Shown here: positions 12,632 to 21,827 of the stretch, piece after piece
How the letters are laid out: every line of letters starts with the position of its first letter
How positions within the stretch are numbered: the stretch's first letter is position 1
Virus record (IMG/VR): IMGVR_UViG_3300047453_000042
Location: 1-23,106 of that record
Source: a virus
Reading direction: 5' to 3' (one strand)
DNA length: 23,106 nt
Translations under genes and position numbers: made by a program
Notes under the pieces: model-generated
Database searches by the model: none
What the model was told of the DNA's origin: nothing
Seen by the model: the letters and a program-made list of their open reading frames with translations, nothing else

Positions 12632-13861
12632 TTATTTTTTTGCAGAACGAAGACCTAAGTCTACATTTCCAGCGTCTTGTAAAACATCTCCAACAAAAGG
12701 TGTTCCTTCATAACCTACTTCTTTGTTGATTCTGTTTGCAATTGCTTTTTCTTCATCAGTTGCAAAGTGTTCATCCCATGCAGCCAATCTTTTTCTCATA
12801 TACCAATGCCAAATTGGTGGTACTAATGCGATAAAGAATACCACGAAGTAGCCCCAGCCTGTGTTTGGACATCCGACATTTTCGAGTTCCCAAAAGTGAG
12901 TTTCTCCTCTGTCGTGATGGTCAGCTTGTCTACCGATTTCAATAAAGAACCAAGCAGTAAAGCATGTTGAGTTATCCCAATTGTGTCTGTAATCAATTGG
13001 TTGGTCTTTCACACGGATTAGACCATAATGCTCTAGATAGTTAAGTGCTTCTAGCTCGAAGTTTGAGATTCCCCAAATTGTTGCTAGTACTGCCATACCT
13101 ATCCAACCACCAGCTGCAAAGAATAATGCTACTGTTGGTACTGCCATTAGATATCCTCTTATCCAACGGTTTTGCCAAGAAATGAATGATACACCCATTC
13201 TTGATAGTCTTTCTTTTTCCATGTTGAAAAGAAATTTTGATTGACCTAGATATGAAAGTGGATAATGACCATAGATTGTTCTACCACGAGGTGCAGTAGC
13301 TGGGTCATCTTCACTTGCAAGTTCTAGATGATGGTTGTACACATGAGCGTAACAGAAATGTGCTGAACCTGATAATGCCATCATTAATCTAGAGATTACG
13401 AATCCAAATCCTTTTGTGTGAGATAGTTCGTGACCATAGATGATTCCGATACCAATAAAGATACCAGAAGATAATGTAGCACCGATTAAGTTAACAGCTG
13501 TTATACCTTCGTGCATTACTAATATTCCAGGAATGAGTTCCATGATTACTGCACCTTCAGCTCCACCTAGTGCCATGAATGTATAAAGTCTCCATGCCAT
13601 TACTAGTTGAAACAAAACGAATACAGGTAACATGAAATACATTGTTAGGTTTTGAAAAGTTGGCCAACCTAAAGATTCGCCGTTTTCATCATAACCTACA
13701 CCTGTTGTTTCAAATTTTGTAGCGATATCTACAAGCAGACCTACGAATAGCAATGCTACTCCTAACCAAGCCATGATACCACCCAAAAGAACGCCAGCAC
13801 CAGCTACGATTATAAGAATCGGCGCTAATAGATAGCGTGCATTAAGTAAGATTTGTCCCAT
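12632..13861 (-). CDS. alkB: AlkB-type membrane di-iron monooxygenase (409 aa)
   Basis: Integral membrane hydroxylase of the AlkB/XylM family, which oxidises terminal C-H bonds of alkanes or related substrates using O2 and electrons from rubredoxin or ferredoxin. About six hydrophobic segments are visible (roughly 10-46, 72-98, 118-143, 235-266, 300-311, 335-355). Motifs: HELSH (144-148), H173-VYN-H177-H178 followed by ASEDDPATA, NYLEHYG (274-280) and RQADHH (311-316). The length fits AlkB (about 400). One usual His in the last box (RHSDHH) is Gln312 here. The RBS AGGAGG is 9 bases before the ATG. It is a single-gene unit with its own promoter and terminator. Family assignment strong; substrate could be a lipid or other hydrocarbon rather than an alkane. 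Confidence 0.9.
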   Translation of the reverse strand: MGQILLNARYLLAPILIIVAGAGVLLGGIMAWLGVALLFVGLLVDIATKFETTGVGYDENGESLGWPTFQNLTMYFMLPVFVLFQLVMAWRLYTFMALGGAEGAVIMELIPGILVMHEGITAVNLIGATLSSGIFIGIGIIYGHELSHTKGFGFVISRLMMALSGSAHFCYAHVYNHHLELASEDDPATAPRGRTIYGHYPLSYLGQSKFLFNMEKERLSRMGVSFISWQNRWIRGYLMAVPTVALFFAAGGWIGMAVLATIWGISNFELEALNYLEHYGLIRVKDQPIDYRHNWDNSTCFTAWFFIEIGRQADHHDRGETHFWELENVGCPNTGWGYFVVFFIALVPPIWHWYMRKRLAAWDEHFATDEEKAIANRINKEVGYEGTPFVGDVLQDAGNVDLGLRSAKK

Positions 13862-15516: not shown

Positions 15517-16917
15517 CTATAATTTAAAGTCTGAGAATTTATCGTAAGCCTGTTCAGGTGTTACATAGTCTTCAGTTTCTTCGGTCTGATTACTGTCGAC
15601 TATGTTTTGAGCATTGTTCTCTACATCATATAGTCTCATTTTTGCTCTATCAACACCTATAATAAATGCACGATTCATGGATGGGTCGTTATATCTGTTT
15701 TTCAATTGTTTTACTTTCATTTGACCTAATGCTTCTAATTCTTCATTAGACATTAGAGCAAACATGAAGTCTGCTGTAGCAGGTAAACCAAAAGATTCTG
15801 ATGTGTCTTCTAAACCAATATCTGTTGATACAAAACCACTTCTTGTTGTTTGAGTAGCAGAGAAGATAGGTAAATCAAATTCAACTGCAAGACCTCTAAG
15901 TTCTTCGGCAATTGCTTTGATGTAGAAATATGATGAGATATTTCCACCCTTGAATCTGCTACTCGCACATATGTTGAGGTAATCAACAAATACTATATCT
16001 GGTTTAAAAGTTTTCTTTAATGATAATTCATTTAGTAATGCTCTGAAATGTCCACTATGAGCAGAAGCTGTAGGATATTCTTTGATAATTAAATGACCTG
16101 ATGTTTTACTATTTAACTTTTTCATTTTATTATCATATAAATCTTTTGGCATGGTATGTAAATCATCTATTGTTACATCCATTAAGTTAGCGTCAATTCT
16201 TTCTGCAATTCTTTCTTCTGCCATTTCAAGAGTAATATATAAAACATTTTTACCTTGTGTTAAGAATGATGAAGCACAATGACACATGAATAAAGATTTA
16301 CCAACGCCGGTGCCTGCAAGTGCAATGTTTAAAGTTTTACTTGGGACACCGCCTTTGGTGATACGATTAAAATAATTTAAATCAAACTTAAATCTTTTTT
16401 CTTTTCTATGATAGTATTCAAATCTGGCGTCAGCGTCTTCTATGTAATCATGACCAACATGATTGTCAAAAGATACTGCAAGGGCTTCTGCAAGAATACT
16501 TGGTATTGCTTCTGGTGTTTTTTGTTTGTCTTTGCCATCAAGAATTTTAATACCATCTAATACAGCATTGTGTACTGCACGGTCTTTACAAAACTTTTCT
16601 GTTGTATCAAACAACCATTGTAAATCATCTTCTTGTGGATTTAAGGTCTTTACAACTTCTTTAATTTCTTTTAGTTCATCTTCTGTTATGTCTTTTCTTT
16701 GACCAAGTTCTATAAGAATAGATTCTTTTGTTGGTAAGTTTTTATATTTGTTAACAAAACTTTCTACTTCAGAAAATAATATAGCTTCATCTCTTTTATT
16801 AAAAAATTGAGATTTTATAAAAGGTAAAGCCTTTCTTGTAAAGTCTTCATTGAAGAATAGATTACGGAGTATCGTTGTCTCTATTCTTTCTGAATTATTT
16901 AAGGTCAAGTTTTCCAT
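15517..16917 (-). CDS. 41: Replicative DNA helicase, T4 gp41 / DnaB type (466 aa)
   Basis: Hexameric 5'-3' helicase that opens the replication fork and works with primase and the polymerase encoded upstream. Residues 1-150 are the helical N-terminal domain. The RecA-like motor follows: Walker A AGTGVGKS (201-208), ITLEMAEERIAERI (H1a-like), Walker B IVFVDYLN (near 310), FSATQTTRSG (H3-like) and an arginine-finger region QLKNRYNDPSMNRAF. The length fits gp41 (475 residues in T4). The start overlaps the end of the 96-residue gene by 23 bases. Order uvsX - small gene - 41 is the same as in T4 and its marine relatives. High confidence. Confidence 0.92.
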   Translation of the reverse strand: MENLTLNNSERIETTILRNLFFNEDFTRKALPFIKSQFFNKRDEAILFSEVESFVNKYKNLPTKESILIELGQRKDITEDELKEIKEVVKTLNPQEDDLQWLFDTTEKFCKDRAVHNAVLDGIKILDGKDKQKTPEAIPSILAEALAVSFDNHVGHDYIEDADARFEYYHRKEKRFKFDLNYFNRITKGGVPSKTLNIALAGTGVGKSLFMCHCASSFLTQGKNVLYITLEMAEERIAERIDANLMDVTIDDLHTMPKDLYDNKMKKLNSKTSGHLIIKEYPTASAHSGHFRALLNELSLKKTFKPDIVFVDYLNICASSRFKGGNISSYFYIKAIAEELRGLAVEFDLPIFSATQTTRSGFVSTDIGLEDTSESFGLPATADFMFALMSNEELEALGQMKVKQLKNRYNDPSMNRAFIIGVDRAKMRLYDVENNAQNIVDSNQTEETEDYVTPEQAYDKFSDFKL

Positions 16918-17185
16918 CTTTAATTTGTTTCTCTAAAAGTTCTACACATATATCTCCAATAAAATTTACAAATTCATCAGTAGTAGTATCAATATTATTA
17001 GGATTCTTAACTACTGTGTAATCAAATTTCATTGCAAGTTCACCTTTGTCATTTTCTTCCTTAGCAAAGCCTACTGAACCAAAATCAAAAATAACATCTT
17101 TAAATCTTTCATCTGCAATCTTTATAGATGAGTGGTCTGCACCATCTTTTTGTGCAAACACATATTGTGGTTTATTCTTCTCCAT
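16895..17185 (-). CDS. Small conserved protein between uvsX and the helicase (96 aa)
   Basis: Start chosen at the ATG of [20 protein letters not shown], which overlaps the uvsX stop by 14 bases. A longer in-frame start inside uvsX gives a low-complexity extension in the wrong frame of uvsX and is not believable. The protein is acidic with alternating strands and one C-terminal helix, and no known motif. Position matches T4 gene 40, but I see no sequence resemblance to gp40. Its overlap with both neighbours indicates translational coupling with recombination and replication proteins, so a helper of UvsX or the helicase is a reasonable guess. Confidence 0.8.
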
Positions 17186-18191
17186 AACTAAATTTCTTTT
17201 TAACATATTCATTAACCTTATCAAGCATTTCTTTTGTGAAATATTTTTCAGGGTCATTATTAATAGTTTTTGCATATTGTTTATTACCATCTGGCAATTC
17301 AATACGAGTAGATACCTTTTTAATAACACCAGCTTCTTCTGCTAATTCTAACATGCCATAAAATTTATCAAGACCATGTTTATAGGATAGTCTAACATCA
17401 ACTTGTGCATTTTCTTTTGTAATTCTTGACTTGTAATTTTTACAATGTATTATATTACCTACAACTTCTGTGCCATCTTTTTCTTTTCTTTTACCTAGAT
17501 ATACAATACTTGAAGCTGCATATTTAAGACCAGAACCACCACCCATTTCTTTCTGTGGGAACATAGAACCAATCACATCATATGTATGATTAGTCATAAT
17601 CATTGGCACATTTGCCTGACCTAGTTTTAAAGTTAAAACTCTAAATGCTGATTTAACAATTTGACTTCTAGTCATATCTCTTGTTTCTTTACCTTCAGCT
17701 GTATCTTCCATTTCTTTTGTAGTAGACAACATACCTAAGGAATCAAGTACAAACATTAAAGGTTGTCTTGTTTCTTTATCTTGTTCTAGATATTTGTCAA
17801 GAATTCTGATTGATTGTGTTCTAAACTCTTGTACTGTTGCAACAGGCACCACTACAACTCTGCCGGCATCCATACCTCTACTTTCTACCATTTCTTTTGA
17901 TATTGCATTTTCTGATTCAAAATATACAACACCACCTTCCTTATGTTGTTCTAAGAAACTTTTGCATATTCCTAATGCAAAGAAAGTTTTACCTGTAGCG
18001 GCCTCACCTGCAATTGCTGTGATACGATTGCCTGGTAAACCACCATAAATATCGCCTGATAGTAAAGCATTGAAGGCATAAGAACCTGTGTCAATGAAAC
18101 TATCTACATCTGCCCCAGCAACACCATCTTTTACGAGAGTGGCATATTCGTTGCCGGATTCTTTGATTACATCCTTTAAAAAGTCATTCAT
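17172..18191 (-). CDS. uvsX: UvsX, RecA-like recombinase (339 aa)
   Basis: Strand-exchange ATPase for recombination-dependent replication and repair. Core: Walker A GEAATGKT (62-69), VVYFESENA (88-96) with the catalytic Glu region, Walker [10 protein letters not shown] (145-153), L1-like [27 protein letters not shown], and L2 region [20 protein letters not shown]. The length is a little shorter than T4 UvsX (about 390). A perfect sigma-70 promoter lies just upstream (18217-18245) and GAGGTAATTA serves as RBS. Followed by the small 96-residue gene and the gp41 helicase with overlaps, forming one replication operon. High confidence. Confidence 0.93.
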
Positions 18192-18216: not shown

Positions 18217-18245
18217 ATTATACACCATTTATCTTATAATGTCAA
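18217..18245 (-). promoter_or_regulatory. Sigma-70 promoter TTGACA-17-TATAAT before uvsX
   Basis: Both hexamers are perfect with the ideal 17-base spacer: -35 at 18240-18245, -10 at 18217-18222. The -35 lies in the last codons of the DruA-like gene. Early or middle transcription of uvsX, the 96-residue gene and helicase is expected. Confidence 0.85.
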
Positions 18246-19326
18246 TGTTGGTTTGGTTTGTCCAGACTTCGATATCTTTTCTTAATCTGTCATCTGATTT
18301 TAGACTTTCATATCTTTTGGTTGCTTTCTTTTTCCACCAATTGATAAGCTCTTCAACTTCATATCTATCGTAATTATCTTCTTTGATAATTTTATCGGTT
18401 TTACCATTTACGATATCTATGTAGTTTCTTATACCATAATTAGACACATAATATCTTTTCTTCTCTGTAAGTTTTTTAGCGTCATTTATGGTGTTTCTAA
18501 AATTCTCTAAATCTGTTCCTTCTAAAGACCTTTTTATTAGGCCTTGAATTGCACTCATCATTTTTAATTTTTTAGATGAGGCGTCTTTTTGTACTAATGA
18601 CCCAACTCTATTCTCAACATATTCTACAAGTTTGGTCCACTTATCACCATGCATTAGTGGTATAAAATCACTATCACTTTTACCTCTGTTTTTTAAGAAT
18701 GGTTTCATGCCATCATATTGACTAGAAGATTTACTACTACCATACAAGCTTGTAGTTTCAAAATATACTAAGTTCATATCATACTTTTCATTCATTCTTT
18801 TTCTGACCCAATGACTACAACATAAAGCTGCCAATAATTTACCACCTAGATAATTAAAACCAAAAGGTTGTGCTGGCACAATTACAAAACCCATGATAGA
18901 AGTTTTGTTAAATGATGTTAAGTCAGGAACATTTCCTAATAATTCATTTCTAGGTTTCATATTAATAACAGGTGAAGCAAGTCTTATAAAACCTAACCAT
19001 TTATTTGTATTTGTTTCTTTTATACCTAGTTTTAAATTCTTACCAGGCACACTTGTCATATTTGTATGGCTTGAAATAATATTCAAACATGAATCAAATG
19101 TTTTATTATCTGGTTCTTCTATCTTAATATTCATATCTTCAGGGGACATGGTGAAATCTGAAAATAAATCTGTTTCAAAACCCATACCAGGTAGAGCAGT
19201 AGGCATATGTTTTATTTGTTCAAGTTTTTGTTCTAACATATACTCATCAACTCTACTAAAATTTTTAAAATAATCTGATATTGCATTTGCACAATGTAGT
19301 GCTTCTTTTCTTTCTAATGTTTTCAT
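18229..19326 (-). CDS. DUF4338 / DruA-like protein (365 aa)
   Basis: The central part has the layout I associate with DUF4338, the domain of the Druantia protein DruA: NKWLGFIRLASPVINMKPRN, then IMGFVIVPAQPFGFNYLGGK with LLAALCCSHWVRKRM, then VYFETTSLYGSSK with a Tyr and Gly-Met (about 195-208). N-terminal 80 residues are helical and specific to phages; the C-terminal third is Lys-rich helical with no motif. The start overlaps the polymerase stop (ATGA), so it is made with the replication proteins. DUF4338 proteins occur in T4-like marine phages, where the role is unknown; a DNA-linked role is likely. The family call rests on pattern recall and needs a profile search. Confidence 0.6.
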   Translation of the reverse strand: MKTLERKEALHCANAISDYFKNFSRVDEYMLEQKLEQIKHMPTALPGMGFETDLFSDFTMSPEDMNIKIEEPDNKTFDSCLNIISSHTNMTSVPGKNLKLGIKETNTNKWLGFIRLASPVINMKPRNELLGNVPDLTSFNKTSIMGFVIVPAQPFGFNYLGGKLLAALCCSHWVRKRMNEKYDMNLVYFETTSLYGSSKSSSQYDGMKPFLKNRGKSDSDFIPLMHGDKWTKLVEYVENRVGSLVQKDASSKKLKMMSAIQGLIKRSLEGTDLENFRNTINDAKKLTEKKRYYVSNYGIRNYIDIVNGKTDKIIKEDNYDRYEVEELINWWKKKATKRYESLKSDDRLRKDIEVWTNQTNIDIIR

Positions 19327-21827
19327 CCGAAAAAACTCTCCAAACTAGCTTGTTCTTCAGCATTCCAATTAATGGTTTCTAATATAAATTCCATAGGCGC
19401 TAAGAATGTTTTTTGAAATTGTGTTTCATAGTCTACAAATTTATTTAAATTAAATTCAGGTGGAAGTTTTGTAATGTAACTAATAACATCAAATTTAAAT
19501 GGATTTGCTTCAACAAGTTTTATAAATTTAATCTTATCACCTTCTTGAATATAAGGATACTTGTTTTGTAATTTAAACTTTTGAATATTATGATTATATA
19601 TCAATGCACCCTTTACATGTATTGGTGTACCCTTTTTAAATATGTTTGCTGAATCTTTATACTTTCTCAAATTATTACATGACCTAGGAAAAGATATTTG
19701 TTCAGGTATCATATTATAAAAATCTTTTCTAAACTCTTTAATATAATTTTGTAGTTCTGTTTCATCTTTTGACATTATAATATTAATAGCTTCCTTAATT
19801 CGACTTCTACAAACTTGTGGTGTTGAAGATTTAACGGCTTCAATACCCATAAGTTTTAGTTTAGGTTTTGATAGTCTAACACCCTCATCATCTAAAACAT
19901 TTAACATATATCTTTTCTTTGCAACCCATATACCTTTGTTTGCAATAACTTCTCTTTTCATTACCATACAATTTTTAAATGCATTAGTATAATCAGATAG
20001 TTCATCAAAACACTTTTCTATATATGGTTCTAATTTGTTTATACAAACTTTTTCTAGAAAATCAATAGTCTCTTGTGTTGATTTACCTTCACATGTTTTT
20101 TCTACTAACTTGCCTAGATTTACATAGATAGAATCTGTATCAGAGGCAACAATATAATCTTTTTCACCATGTGTTTGTAATACTTGATTTAGATATTCAT
20201 TCATTTTGTTTTCTATAAATCTAATAATAAATTGACCAGCTGTTGTGATAGCACTTGCCTGTCTTACATCATAATATCTAAAGTATTGATTACCTACTGC
20301 ACCATAAGCTGAGTTTAATGCAATTTTTCTTGCCCATTGTATATTATGACATCTAGAAATTTCTTTTACTAAATCAGGATTCTTTGTTTTCTCATATTCT
20401 TTTTTTGCTTTCAACATTCGTTTTTTATAGATAACACGTTCATTGTACATTGTCTCCATCATTTCAGGTAAAAACCCTTGATTATCACTTTTGAACATTG
20501 CACCATTTGGTGTTATACATGCACCTTCTGTTTTTAAATGGCCCAATTTAGATTTACCATATAGAAAATTATTTACAGAAATACCATTTGATTTGACACC
20601 AATAATTTTTTCTGGTGATATATTATATTGTATAATGATATGTGGATATAGTGAGTTAATATCAAATGATACAACCCAATCATGCATACCTGTTATTGGT
20701 TCTTTTACATATGCACCTTCATACTTTGTTTCTTTTGCATGTTCTTCTCTTGGTGGTACACATATATTTTTCTTTAACAAATGATTTGCAATCAATGTAT
20801 CCCAAACTCTTACTTGTGAAAAGATATCATCATAATTAACTTTTGATTCATATGCAACAGTCAATGCTAAATCAATAAGGCCTAATTTGTCTTCTAATTT
20901 ATCTACAATTTCAACATCTTGTATGTTATAATCTACAAACTTTTGAAAATCTTTTTCATAAAATTCTTTGAATGTATCAAATGGGTTTTCATTTTTGTTT
21001 TCACCAAGTTCAACCTCACCAATATGGTCTAGTTTATAACTTTCTTGTCTTGTTGGTATAAACCATTTATATAAATCTAGATAGTCTAACATAACAACAC
21101 CAAACAATGTATAGACTGTTTGTAGTCGGCCTCTTACAGATATTTCTTCTTGTCTGATAAGATTCCAAGGAGACATCTTGTTAGCAACTTTATCACCAGC
21201 TAACATTTTAATTCTATTCATCAAATATGGTAAATCAAAAAACTTTGTATTCCAACCTGTAACAACATCTGGATAGTTTGACTTCCAAAATTTAATGAAT
21301 TCATATATTAATTGATTTTCATCTTCACAATCAATATATGTAACATCTTCTCTATCTGTATTATATTGACCAATACCCCATGTTAATATTTGTTTATTAG
21401 ATTGATTTTTAACTGTGATACAAATTATTTGTTCTTGTGGATTTTCTACATCTGGAAAACCATTTTCACAAGTTGTCTCTATATCGAGGGTAAATATTTT
21501 AATAAATTCTTTTGACCATTCTATTTGTTCTGACCATTGCTCATTGATATATTGATAGTGATATCTTTCTAGACCAAATATAGGAGTATTATCTGTTGCA
21601 ACATCTTTTCTAAATCTCATAGCGTCACCAATAGAATTAAAAGTTATTGGTTTTAAGTTTTGGCCTTGTAAGGTTTTGAATTTAGAATTTTCTCTTGTTA
21701 AAGAGTATAGAGTAGGACCGAAATCAATCTTTTCTATGACTTCTCTATTAGTGTCTTTTGTTTGTTCAAATCTTCTAACAAGAAGTTTGCCTTTGTGTTG
21801 TATTACATTCTTATAAAAGTTCATCAT
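19323..21827 (-). CDS. 43: DNA polymerase, family B, T4 gp43 type (834 aa)
   Basis: Replicative polymerase with 3'-5' proofreading. Exonuclease motifs: LDIETT (Asp115, Glu117), GWNTKFFDLP (191-200), YNIQDVEIVD (300-309). Polymerase motifs: A, SFDINSLYPHI (387-397, Asp389); B, RKIALNSAYGAVGNQYF (500-516); C, ASDTDSIYVN (561-570). The C-terminus QASLESFFG is a clamp-binding tail like that of T4 gp43 (ASLDFLFG-like). At 834 residues it is slightly shorter than T4 gp43 (898). No intein, split or homing gene interrupts it. It overlaps the ferredoxin gene by 17 bases. High confidence. Confidence 0.97.
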   Translation of the reverse strand: MMNFYKNVIQHKGKLLVRRFEQTKDTNREVIEKIDFGPTLYSLTRENSKFKTLQGQNLKPITFNSIGDAMRFRKDVATDNTPIFGLERYHYQYINEQWSEQIEWSKEFIKIFTLDIETTCENGFPDVENPQEQIICITVKNQSNKQILTWGIGQYNTDREDVTYIDCEDENQLIYEFIKFWKSNYPDVVTGWNTKFFDLPYLMNRIKMLAGDKVANKMSPWNLIRQEEISVRGRLQTVYTLFGVVMLDYLDLYKWFIPTRQESYKLDHIGEVELGENKNENPFDTFKEFYEKDFQKFVDYNIQDVEIVDKLEDKLGLIDLALTVAYESKVNYDDIFSQVRVWDTLIANHLLKKNICVPPREEHAKETKYEGAYVKEPITGMHDWVVSFDINSLYPHIIIQYNISPEKIIGVKSNGISVNNFLYGKSKLGHLKTEGACITPNGAMFKSDNQGFLPEMMETMYNERVIYKKRMLKAKKEYEKTKNPDLVKEISRCHNIQWARKIALNSAYGAVGNQYFRYYDVRQASAITTAGQFIIRFIENKMNEYLNQVLQTHGEKDYIVASDTDSIYVNLGKLVEKTCEGKSTQETIDFLEKVCINKLEPYIEKCFDELSDYTNAFKNCMVMKREVIANKGIWVAKKRYMLNVLDDEGVRLSKPKLKLMGIEAVKSSTPQVCRSRIKEAINIIMSKDETELQNYIKEFRKDFYNMIPEQISFPRSCNNLRKYKDSANIFKKGTPIHVKGALIYNHNIQKFKLQNKYPYIQEGDKIKFIKLVEANPFKFDVISYITKLPPEFNLNKFVDYETQFQKTFLAPMEFILETINWNAEEQASLESFFG

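Follow-up and report, generated by a model that had tools for sequence, protein, structure and literature searches.

DruA-family proteins trade places with DNA methyltransferases in the replication operons of marine T4-like phages

Introduction

Mom of bacteriophage Mu is a protein of 241 amino acids that is encoded by a lone late gene. It transfers an acyl group to N6 of adenine, which protects the DNA (as described in passages of PMC7824862). DruA (Pfam PF14236, formerly DUF4338) belongs to the Druantia defence system of bacteria, and no description of its biochemical role was found in the open-licence literature searched. Passages of a paper on DndFGH systems call DUF4338 a GNAT domain (PMC10853773), and passages of the Phold paper (2026) report six Synechococcus phages with DruA-like proteins, S-PRM1 being named, on the basis of structural likeness (TM 0.73; PMC12774648). 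Both the presence of DruA-like proteins in cyanophages and the GNAT assignment were therefore known before. The same passages of the Phold paper contain no operon slot, methyltransferase exchange or pelagiphages, in contrast to the present analysis. With regard to marine methylomes, the motif GANTC has been found to partition the pelagiphage phylogeny, and viral methylomes often mismatch the methyltransferases predicted for the phages, so that marine phage methylation is not simply explained (passages of PMC9516812).

Here we describe a DruA-family gene, termed X, in a virus record of 23.1 kb (‘the window’: all 23,106 nucleotides of IMG/VR record IMGVR_UViG_3300047453_000042). Its product and DruA of Druantia type I (PF14236, PADLOC DruA1) appear similar over their full length, the GNAT core included, and have in common a P-loop-like (L/C)GGKL(L/V)A motif and a T-x-S-x-x-G-x-S...Y motif; X differs in its length of 365 amino acids, in standing alone among phage replication genes and in forming a separate clade. 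Mom (PDB 8bv8), for which the literature gives a DNA-directed role in its phage, is the top structural match of X, with an arginine and a tyrosine in common, but it is the shorter protein, has a catalytic serine where X has a glycine, and gives no direct profile match. The Dam/D12 N6-adenine methyltransferases of cyanophages occupy the same place between gp44 and gp62 as X and show the same tight coupling, whereas in fold and sequence they are unrelated to it. The pattern of exchange set out below is new, in that it was not found in the open-licence literature on DruA/Druantia, Mom, cyanophage Dam and pelagiphage modification. The occurrence of this swap in cultured cyanophages and pelagiphages makes the role of DruA directly testable on phage DNA.

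Gene X and its surroundings

Within the window, X lies on the minus strand. It is inside the replication operon, as a sequence-only reading of this DNA had proposed, and upstream of uvsX, with the polymerase and RecA/UvsX as its flanks and the DnaB_C helicase beyond (Table 1). The minus strand at the gp43/X junction reads TTCGGATGAAAAC, which confirms the proposed coupling of X to the DNA polymerase gene by an ATGA overlap; there is no overlap on the uvsX side, where a gap of 37 nt separates X from the UvsX/RecA homologue. The gene order is that of Pelagibacter phage HTVC008M, namely gp43, X, a small ORF, uvsX and helicase. The open reading frame is not a chance one, since relatives of it are found in 337 IMG/VR stretches and its dN/dS, as measured against six relatives, is 0.10–0.15. 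The phage operon also encodes a membrane protein of 409 amino acids of the fatty-acid-desaturase family (window 12632–13861; PF00487, 1.1e-27), which by eye resembles an alkane hydroxylase.

Table 1. Features of gene X and its operon, in window coordinates.
Feature	Position	Strand	Basis or remark
X: DruA-family (PF14236) protein with predicted GNAT fold, 365 aa	18229..19326	-	ORF list, Pfam, PADLOC, AF2, VIA
ATGA overlap: X start codon over gp43 stop codon	19323..19326	-	sequence read
gp43-like family B DNA polymerase, upstream flank of X slot	19323..21827	-	DNA_pol_B 2.8e-29; gene order as HTVC008M
UvsX/RecA-like recombinase, downstream flank of X slot	17172..18191	-	RecA 1.9e-16
gp41-like replicative helicase (DnaB_C), same operon as X	15517..16917	-	Pfam
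DruA-profile-matching stretch of X (profile 45–178 of 297)	18754..19143	-	Pfam/HMMER
E190-T-T-S-L-Y-G196 motif	18739..18759	-	invariant in 18 aligned phage X proteins
C-terminal Ile-Ile-Arg (IIR) of X	18232..18240	-	last three residues in 330/330 complete X proteins

Family membership and distribution

The central claim of the earlier reading, that this gene encodes a DruA-like (DUF4338-like) protein, is borne out by profile searches, and the lack of a profile match, which would have refuted it, was not observed. Pfam PF14236 matches residues 62–191 of X above its curated cut-off (E 1.6e-7, 31.2 bits, cut-off 27), PADLOC DruA1 matches with E 1.7e-5, and hhalign of X against one bacterial DruA extends over 264 columns (E 6e-12), where the HMMER match covers only profile positions 45–178 of 297. 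The PF14236 search found a match in none of 14 control genomes; 14 of the 15 named phages with X exceed the cut-off, S-T4 lying below it at 21.4. X corresponds to PHROG 19197, for which no function is given, it has no match in NCBIfam, and a sequence search of solved structures returned nothing relevant. The DruA-like protein of S-PRM1 that appears in the Phold paper is 44.5% identical to the X of the window.

At E 1e-5 or better, X or its paralogue is present in 31 of 50,697 phage records (25 Synechococcus, 3 Pelagibacter, 2 marine single-cell viruses and 1 cyanophage). The best 80 of the 337 IMG/VR stretches that encode relatives near the window's X were used, and further IMG/VR scans with three cyanophage versions of X and with the paralogue gave at least 80 loci each. 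The paralogue is divergent (432 amino acids, DruA 80 bits; L085 5602–6900, L179–L258) and has a conserved place of its own between peptide deformylase and MazG/peptidase genes; its C-terminus is VGR in 80 of 80 proteins. Phage HTVC008M has both X and the paralogue, and Mosig holds only the paralogue, beside its peptide deformylase and MazG genes. Giant viruses (Faunusvirus, Yasminevirus and Dasosvirus; A0A3G4ZXG3, A0A5K0UAJ3 and A0A3G4ZRA1) supply three of the four BFVD matches to the X model under 1e-3, the best having E 1.2e-15 at 23% identity.

Predicted fold and conserved residues

An AlphaFold2 model of X, built from a 42-row alignment (pLDDT 88.7, pTM 0.85), confidently predicts a GNAT-type fold. 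When compared with the PDB by Foldseek it retrieved mainly GNAT-type acyltransferases (best E 8.6e-3, none below 1e-3), the nearest of which were protein N-acetyltransferases. The fold and these nearest matches would suit a protein acyltransferase that acts on the phage replisome or on a host protein; we consider such a role improbable, as it leaves the exchange with DNA methyltransferases unexplained and the family neighbours DruA and Mom act in DNA-directed systems (for the substrate of Mom, see passages of PMC7824862). With VIA-align 2 run on the Foldseek chains, Mom of phage Mu came first (Z 10.0, 183 aligned, rmsd 4.2 Å) and gave the longest alignment listed; ordinary GNATs score Z 9.0–9.7, and many GNATs reach Z 9–10 over about 140–180 residues, so that Mom's lead of less than 1 Z is a tie. 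Direct comparison of the 42-row X profile with Mu Mom alone by hhalign gave no match (E 0.37, 20 columns), and Pfam Mom (PF25680) was not among the Pfam matches of X; as a direct sequence match is absent, the link to Mom rests on structure and on intermediate families.

Conserved residues were read by eye from an alignment of 18 rows (7 X, 2 paralogues, 4 long DruA, 4 transposon-linked DruA and Mu Mom), in which R126 and Y204 of X are kept in every row and G112 in 17. Residue S124 of Mom (the PDB title gives an inactive mutant S124A, and the change of serine to alanine is seen in the sequence) aligns with the invariant Gly162 of X, a pairing that comes from an alignment of remote relatives and could be one residue off; in this column the four transposon-linked DruA all have a serine, and the long DruA have a glycine. 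By this active-site test X is not a Mom, since Gly162 stands where Mom has Ser124, and from the alignment it appears that Mom chemistry is not conserved in X, whose own chemistry need not be Mom's. Amongst X proteins, the stretch from T191 to G196 is still invariant once three paralogues join the 18 phage sequences, and the strictly conserved polar residues of the cleft are T191, T192, S193, Y195, S202, Y204, D205, R126, Q153, N158 and K163. That these residues look like an active site speaks against a protein that protects without modifying, be it a dead or non-catalytic GNAT-fold DNA-binder or a restriction inhibitor, delivered with the replisome. Such a role is unlikely in our view, even though Mom's serine is lost in X, the exclusion data presented below fit any anti-restriction function, and DruA domains adjoin or are fused with DNA-processing proteins (transposases; TnsABC-TniQ-HerA with a NurA-like protein).

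Operon slots

Reference proteins were used in tblastn searches to type the slots. In 65 loci X stands between gp43 and uvsX, as in the window, and in 209 it stands between gp44 and gp62, these counts being of loci with both neighbours detected, as the others ran off contig ends. The gp44–gp62 slot, which is framed by clamp-loader genes, is that of cyanophage X and the gp43–uvsX slot is that of pelagiphage X; in S-B68, X adjoins gp47/gp46. In one contig of the pelagiphage type, a tryptophan-halogenase-family protein (L546 4339–5961; PF04820, 8.9e-85) is found between X and uvsX.

The sequence-only reading had listed a replication accessory protein among the possible roles, and a partner of the polymerase, the clamp loader or UvsX would account for several features: X is invariably found amongst replication or recombination genes, its start is an ATGA overlap in 215 of 330 X genes, and the invariant C-terminal IIR could be a docking peptide. 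The claim fares poorly against the distribution of the gene, and we rate it a distinctly unlikely one. The position of X is not fixed but moves between three places, most T4-like marine phages are without X (31 records with X or paralogue as against 513 with a gp44 relative), and what replaces X is a methyltransferase, not a replication gene.

Exchange at the gp44–gp62 slot

Amongst 339 gp44–gp62 loci with both flanks seen, X was found in 223, D12/Dam in 98, both in none and another gene in 13, with five slots empty; the typing relies on a few reference proteins and would overlook a methyltransferase in an X slot if it had diverged strongly. In this set most loci with X were fetched because they carry it, and the fair sets are therefore the gp44-centred scans. 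The ACG-2014f scan, which was not selected for X, comprises 65 rows, 18 with X, 36 with D12, 11 with neither and none with both, where 9.97 co-occurrences were expected (Fisher 6.9e-9). The S-RIM8 scan has D12 in 58 of 58. When relatedness was controlled, 12 independent pairs differed in X, and D12 differed in the opposite direction in 11.4 of these on average and in the same direction in none (sign test, p about 0.001), this test, like the sister-pair comparison, resting on gp44 trees of short proteins.

Among named phages, D12/Dam fills the slot in S-RIM8, S-RIM14, P-SSM2 and S-RS29, all of which are X-less, and a Pfam-confirmed Dam does so in all six of a further set of named cyanophages without X, which were picked from rows at even spacing; X-less ACG-2014f has no D12/Dam between gp44 and gp62. 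The D12 genes match PF02086 in all four cases tested (E 2e-24 to 9e-31). In 21 named phage records, D12 is present in one of 16 DruA-bearing phages (S-SCSM2R, where it lies outside the slot) and in all five records that have no DruA-family gene, two of these five having been chosen for a displayed methyltransferase; a C5 methylase was found in none of the 21.

Two simple accounts of the exclusion were rejected. The first was that the slot holds one gene only: the 321 filled gp44–gp62 slots contain 114 other ORFs of 180 amino acids or more, 69 of them alongside X and 45 alongside D12, as counted from a mechanical list of ORFs rather than of genes. As both X and D12 are found there in the company of other genes, no limit of a single gene applies to the slot. 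The second was that the exclusion is one old split, against which stand 24 state changes on a careful tree of the 65 rows. A thinned 142-row tree has 22 X/D12 changes, and its well-supported branches force at least five for X. The exchange can also be seen between near-sisters: in seven of eight pairs both gp44 and gp62 remain alignable as DNA on either side of a slot gene that differs, and in the eighth (L690/L689) only gp44 aligned, the contig ending early in gp62.

Exchange at the gp43–uvsX slot

In pelagiphages a scan centred on uvsX covered 80 loci, of which 47 have X, 12 are X-less with gp43 and uvsX both visible, and 21 are cut. Counted without selection for X, the scan holds 32 loci with X and 12 with another DNA methyltransferase (C5 or SPPY type), none with both and none with neither. 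DNA methyltransferases are present in all 12 X-less loci: seven have MT-A70, a C5 methylase and a class I methyltransferase, four have an SPPY-type N6_N4 relative (26.1 bits in Pfam, narrowly below the cut-off of 26.7), and one has MT-A70 with an SPPY-type enzyme. X is itself accompanied by MT-A70 in 60 of the 91 loci in which it occupies this slot, and it therefore does not replace every methyltransferase. There are two well-supported independent pairs, both opposite, which are too few for a sign test.

Proposed function of X

X and the methyltransferase share a place in the operon, replace each other and are not found there together, and it is on these grounds that we propose the same job for both. 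As X alternates with Dam, C5 and N4/N6 methyltransferases and has the fold of a phage-DNA modifier, it most likely does a similar kind of work; its trading places with DNA-methylating enzymes suggests that X too marks phage DNA for protection. The mark would be placed on the DNA, most likely on a base, during synthesis by the replisome, and would guard that DNA against restriction by the host or against nucleases of the phage itself; X would take the part that a DNA methyltransferase has in sister phages. We infer that X is catalytic, that its substrate is DNA and that the mark is protective. Taken as a whole, a Mom/DruA-superfamily GNAT-fold enzyme that chemically marks phage DNA and protects it is the account towards which we lean, by a modest degree. 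The exclusion of X and methyltransferase could instead be one of incompatibility rather than equivalence. Modification or protection of DNA was not amongst the three functions offered by the sequence-only reading (an ancestral phage role, a counter-defence mimic or a replication accessory), all of which are less well supported; the exchange with DNA methyltransferases favours modification or protection instead. If the account is true, X would bring a new DNA modification, maybe an abundant one in ocean viruses, and a mechanism for the DruA part of Druantia.

Sequence-composition traces

Avoidance of GATC, considered as a trace of lost Dam protection, was rejected, as X phages and D12 phages show no difference (0.83 against 0.81). 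For GGCC, one of 16 palindromes tested in phage genomes W01–W27, the difference having first been seen in contigs, the observed/expected ratio is 0.84 in X phages (15 genomes) and 0.19 in D12 phages (11 genomes; MWU p 6.6e-4). Loci with neither X nor D12 also tolerate GGCC (0.59), the X-bearing HTVC008M has 0 sites against 8.6 expected, and the difference is not significant once relatedness is controlled (median p 0.63). That cyanophages with Dam avoid GGCC and most of those with X do not is a lead only.

Phylogeny and the question of Druantia

In a 53-row tree, which is unrooted and for which the tool warns of long branches, the X clade and the paralogue clade join (91) and adjoin a long DruA clade of bacterial and SAR11 proteins, whilst lying apart from the clade of transposon-linked DruA. 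With respect to phage and defence copies, this places the phage clade separate from host DruA and leaves unfixed the root, on which the ancestral phage role of the earlier reading would depend. Matches in ten metagenome-assembled genomes group within or beside the phage X clade, and these are likely to be contigs of phage origin. No Druantia model, those of the partner genes (DruB-E or DruH/E, including the large helicase) among them, matches the 10 window proteins scanned with PADLOC; the neighbours of X are polymerase, RecA and DnaB_C.

In the Pelagibacter order, 4 of 197 genomes carry a long DruA (about 660–700 amino acids), and one further match is a phage contig. In two loci of this order (L479 9688–13578 and L480 7300–11114) the host DruA adjoins a HATPase protein resembling MzaB, with no Druantia partner among the scanned neighbours; these loci are a candidate SAR11 defence operon. 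The homology of X to DruA and the existence of true long DruA in those four genomes are what a decoy that poisons host Druantia complexes, the counter-defence mimic of the earlier reading, would draw upon. A decoy is nevertheless highly improbable: the phage proteins form a clade of their own that is not nested within host DruA, the host gene is rare in the Pelagibacter order and, among the neighbours scanned in the two loci, sits with the HATPase/MzaB-like gene rather than with Druantia partners, and the exchange with Dam is given no reason. Both the decoy and a pure replication role fit worse than DNA marking.

A broader and more tentative possibility is that all members of the DruA family are enzymes that modify (or mark) DNA. 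They would then provide marine T4-like phages with another means of protecting DNA, traded freely for Dam, C5 and N4/N6 methyltransferases at a slot set aside for this amongst the replisome genes, and the same chemistry might serve to mark or read DNA in Druantia, in insertion sequences and in those TnsABC-TniQ transposons that carry NurA/HerA-like genes.

DruA on transposons

A Tn7-like operon in a bacterial genome (L481 2622–11412) has the order TnsA, TnsB, TnsC/TniB, TniQ, DruA, a 404-amino-acid protein and a HerA/mad8-like ATPase. In a second genome (L440) a Pfam NurA protein follows DruA, and a transposon-borne module of the NurA/HerA type may include DruA. A weak match to Pfam Mom is given by one transposon-fused DruA (1.8e-4, under the cut-off). 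Short DruA domains adjoin or are fused with transposases (DDE_Tnp_1, DDE_Tnp_1_assoc) in L442, L444 and L446, and these domains retain the Mom-like serine.
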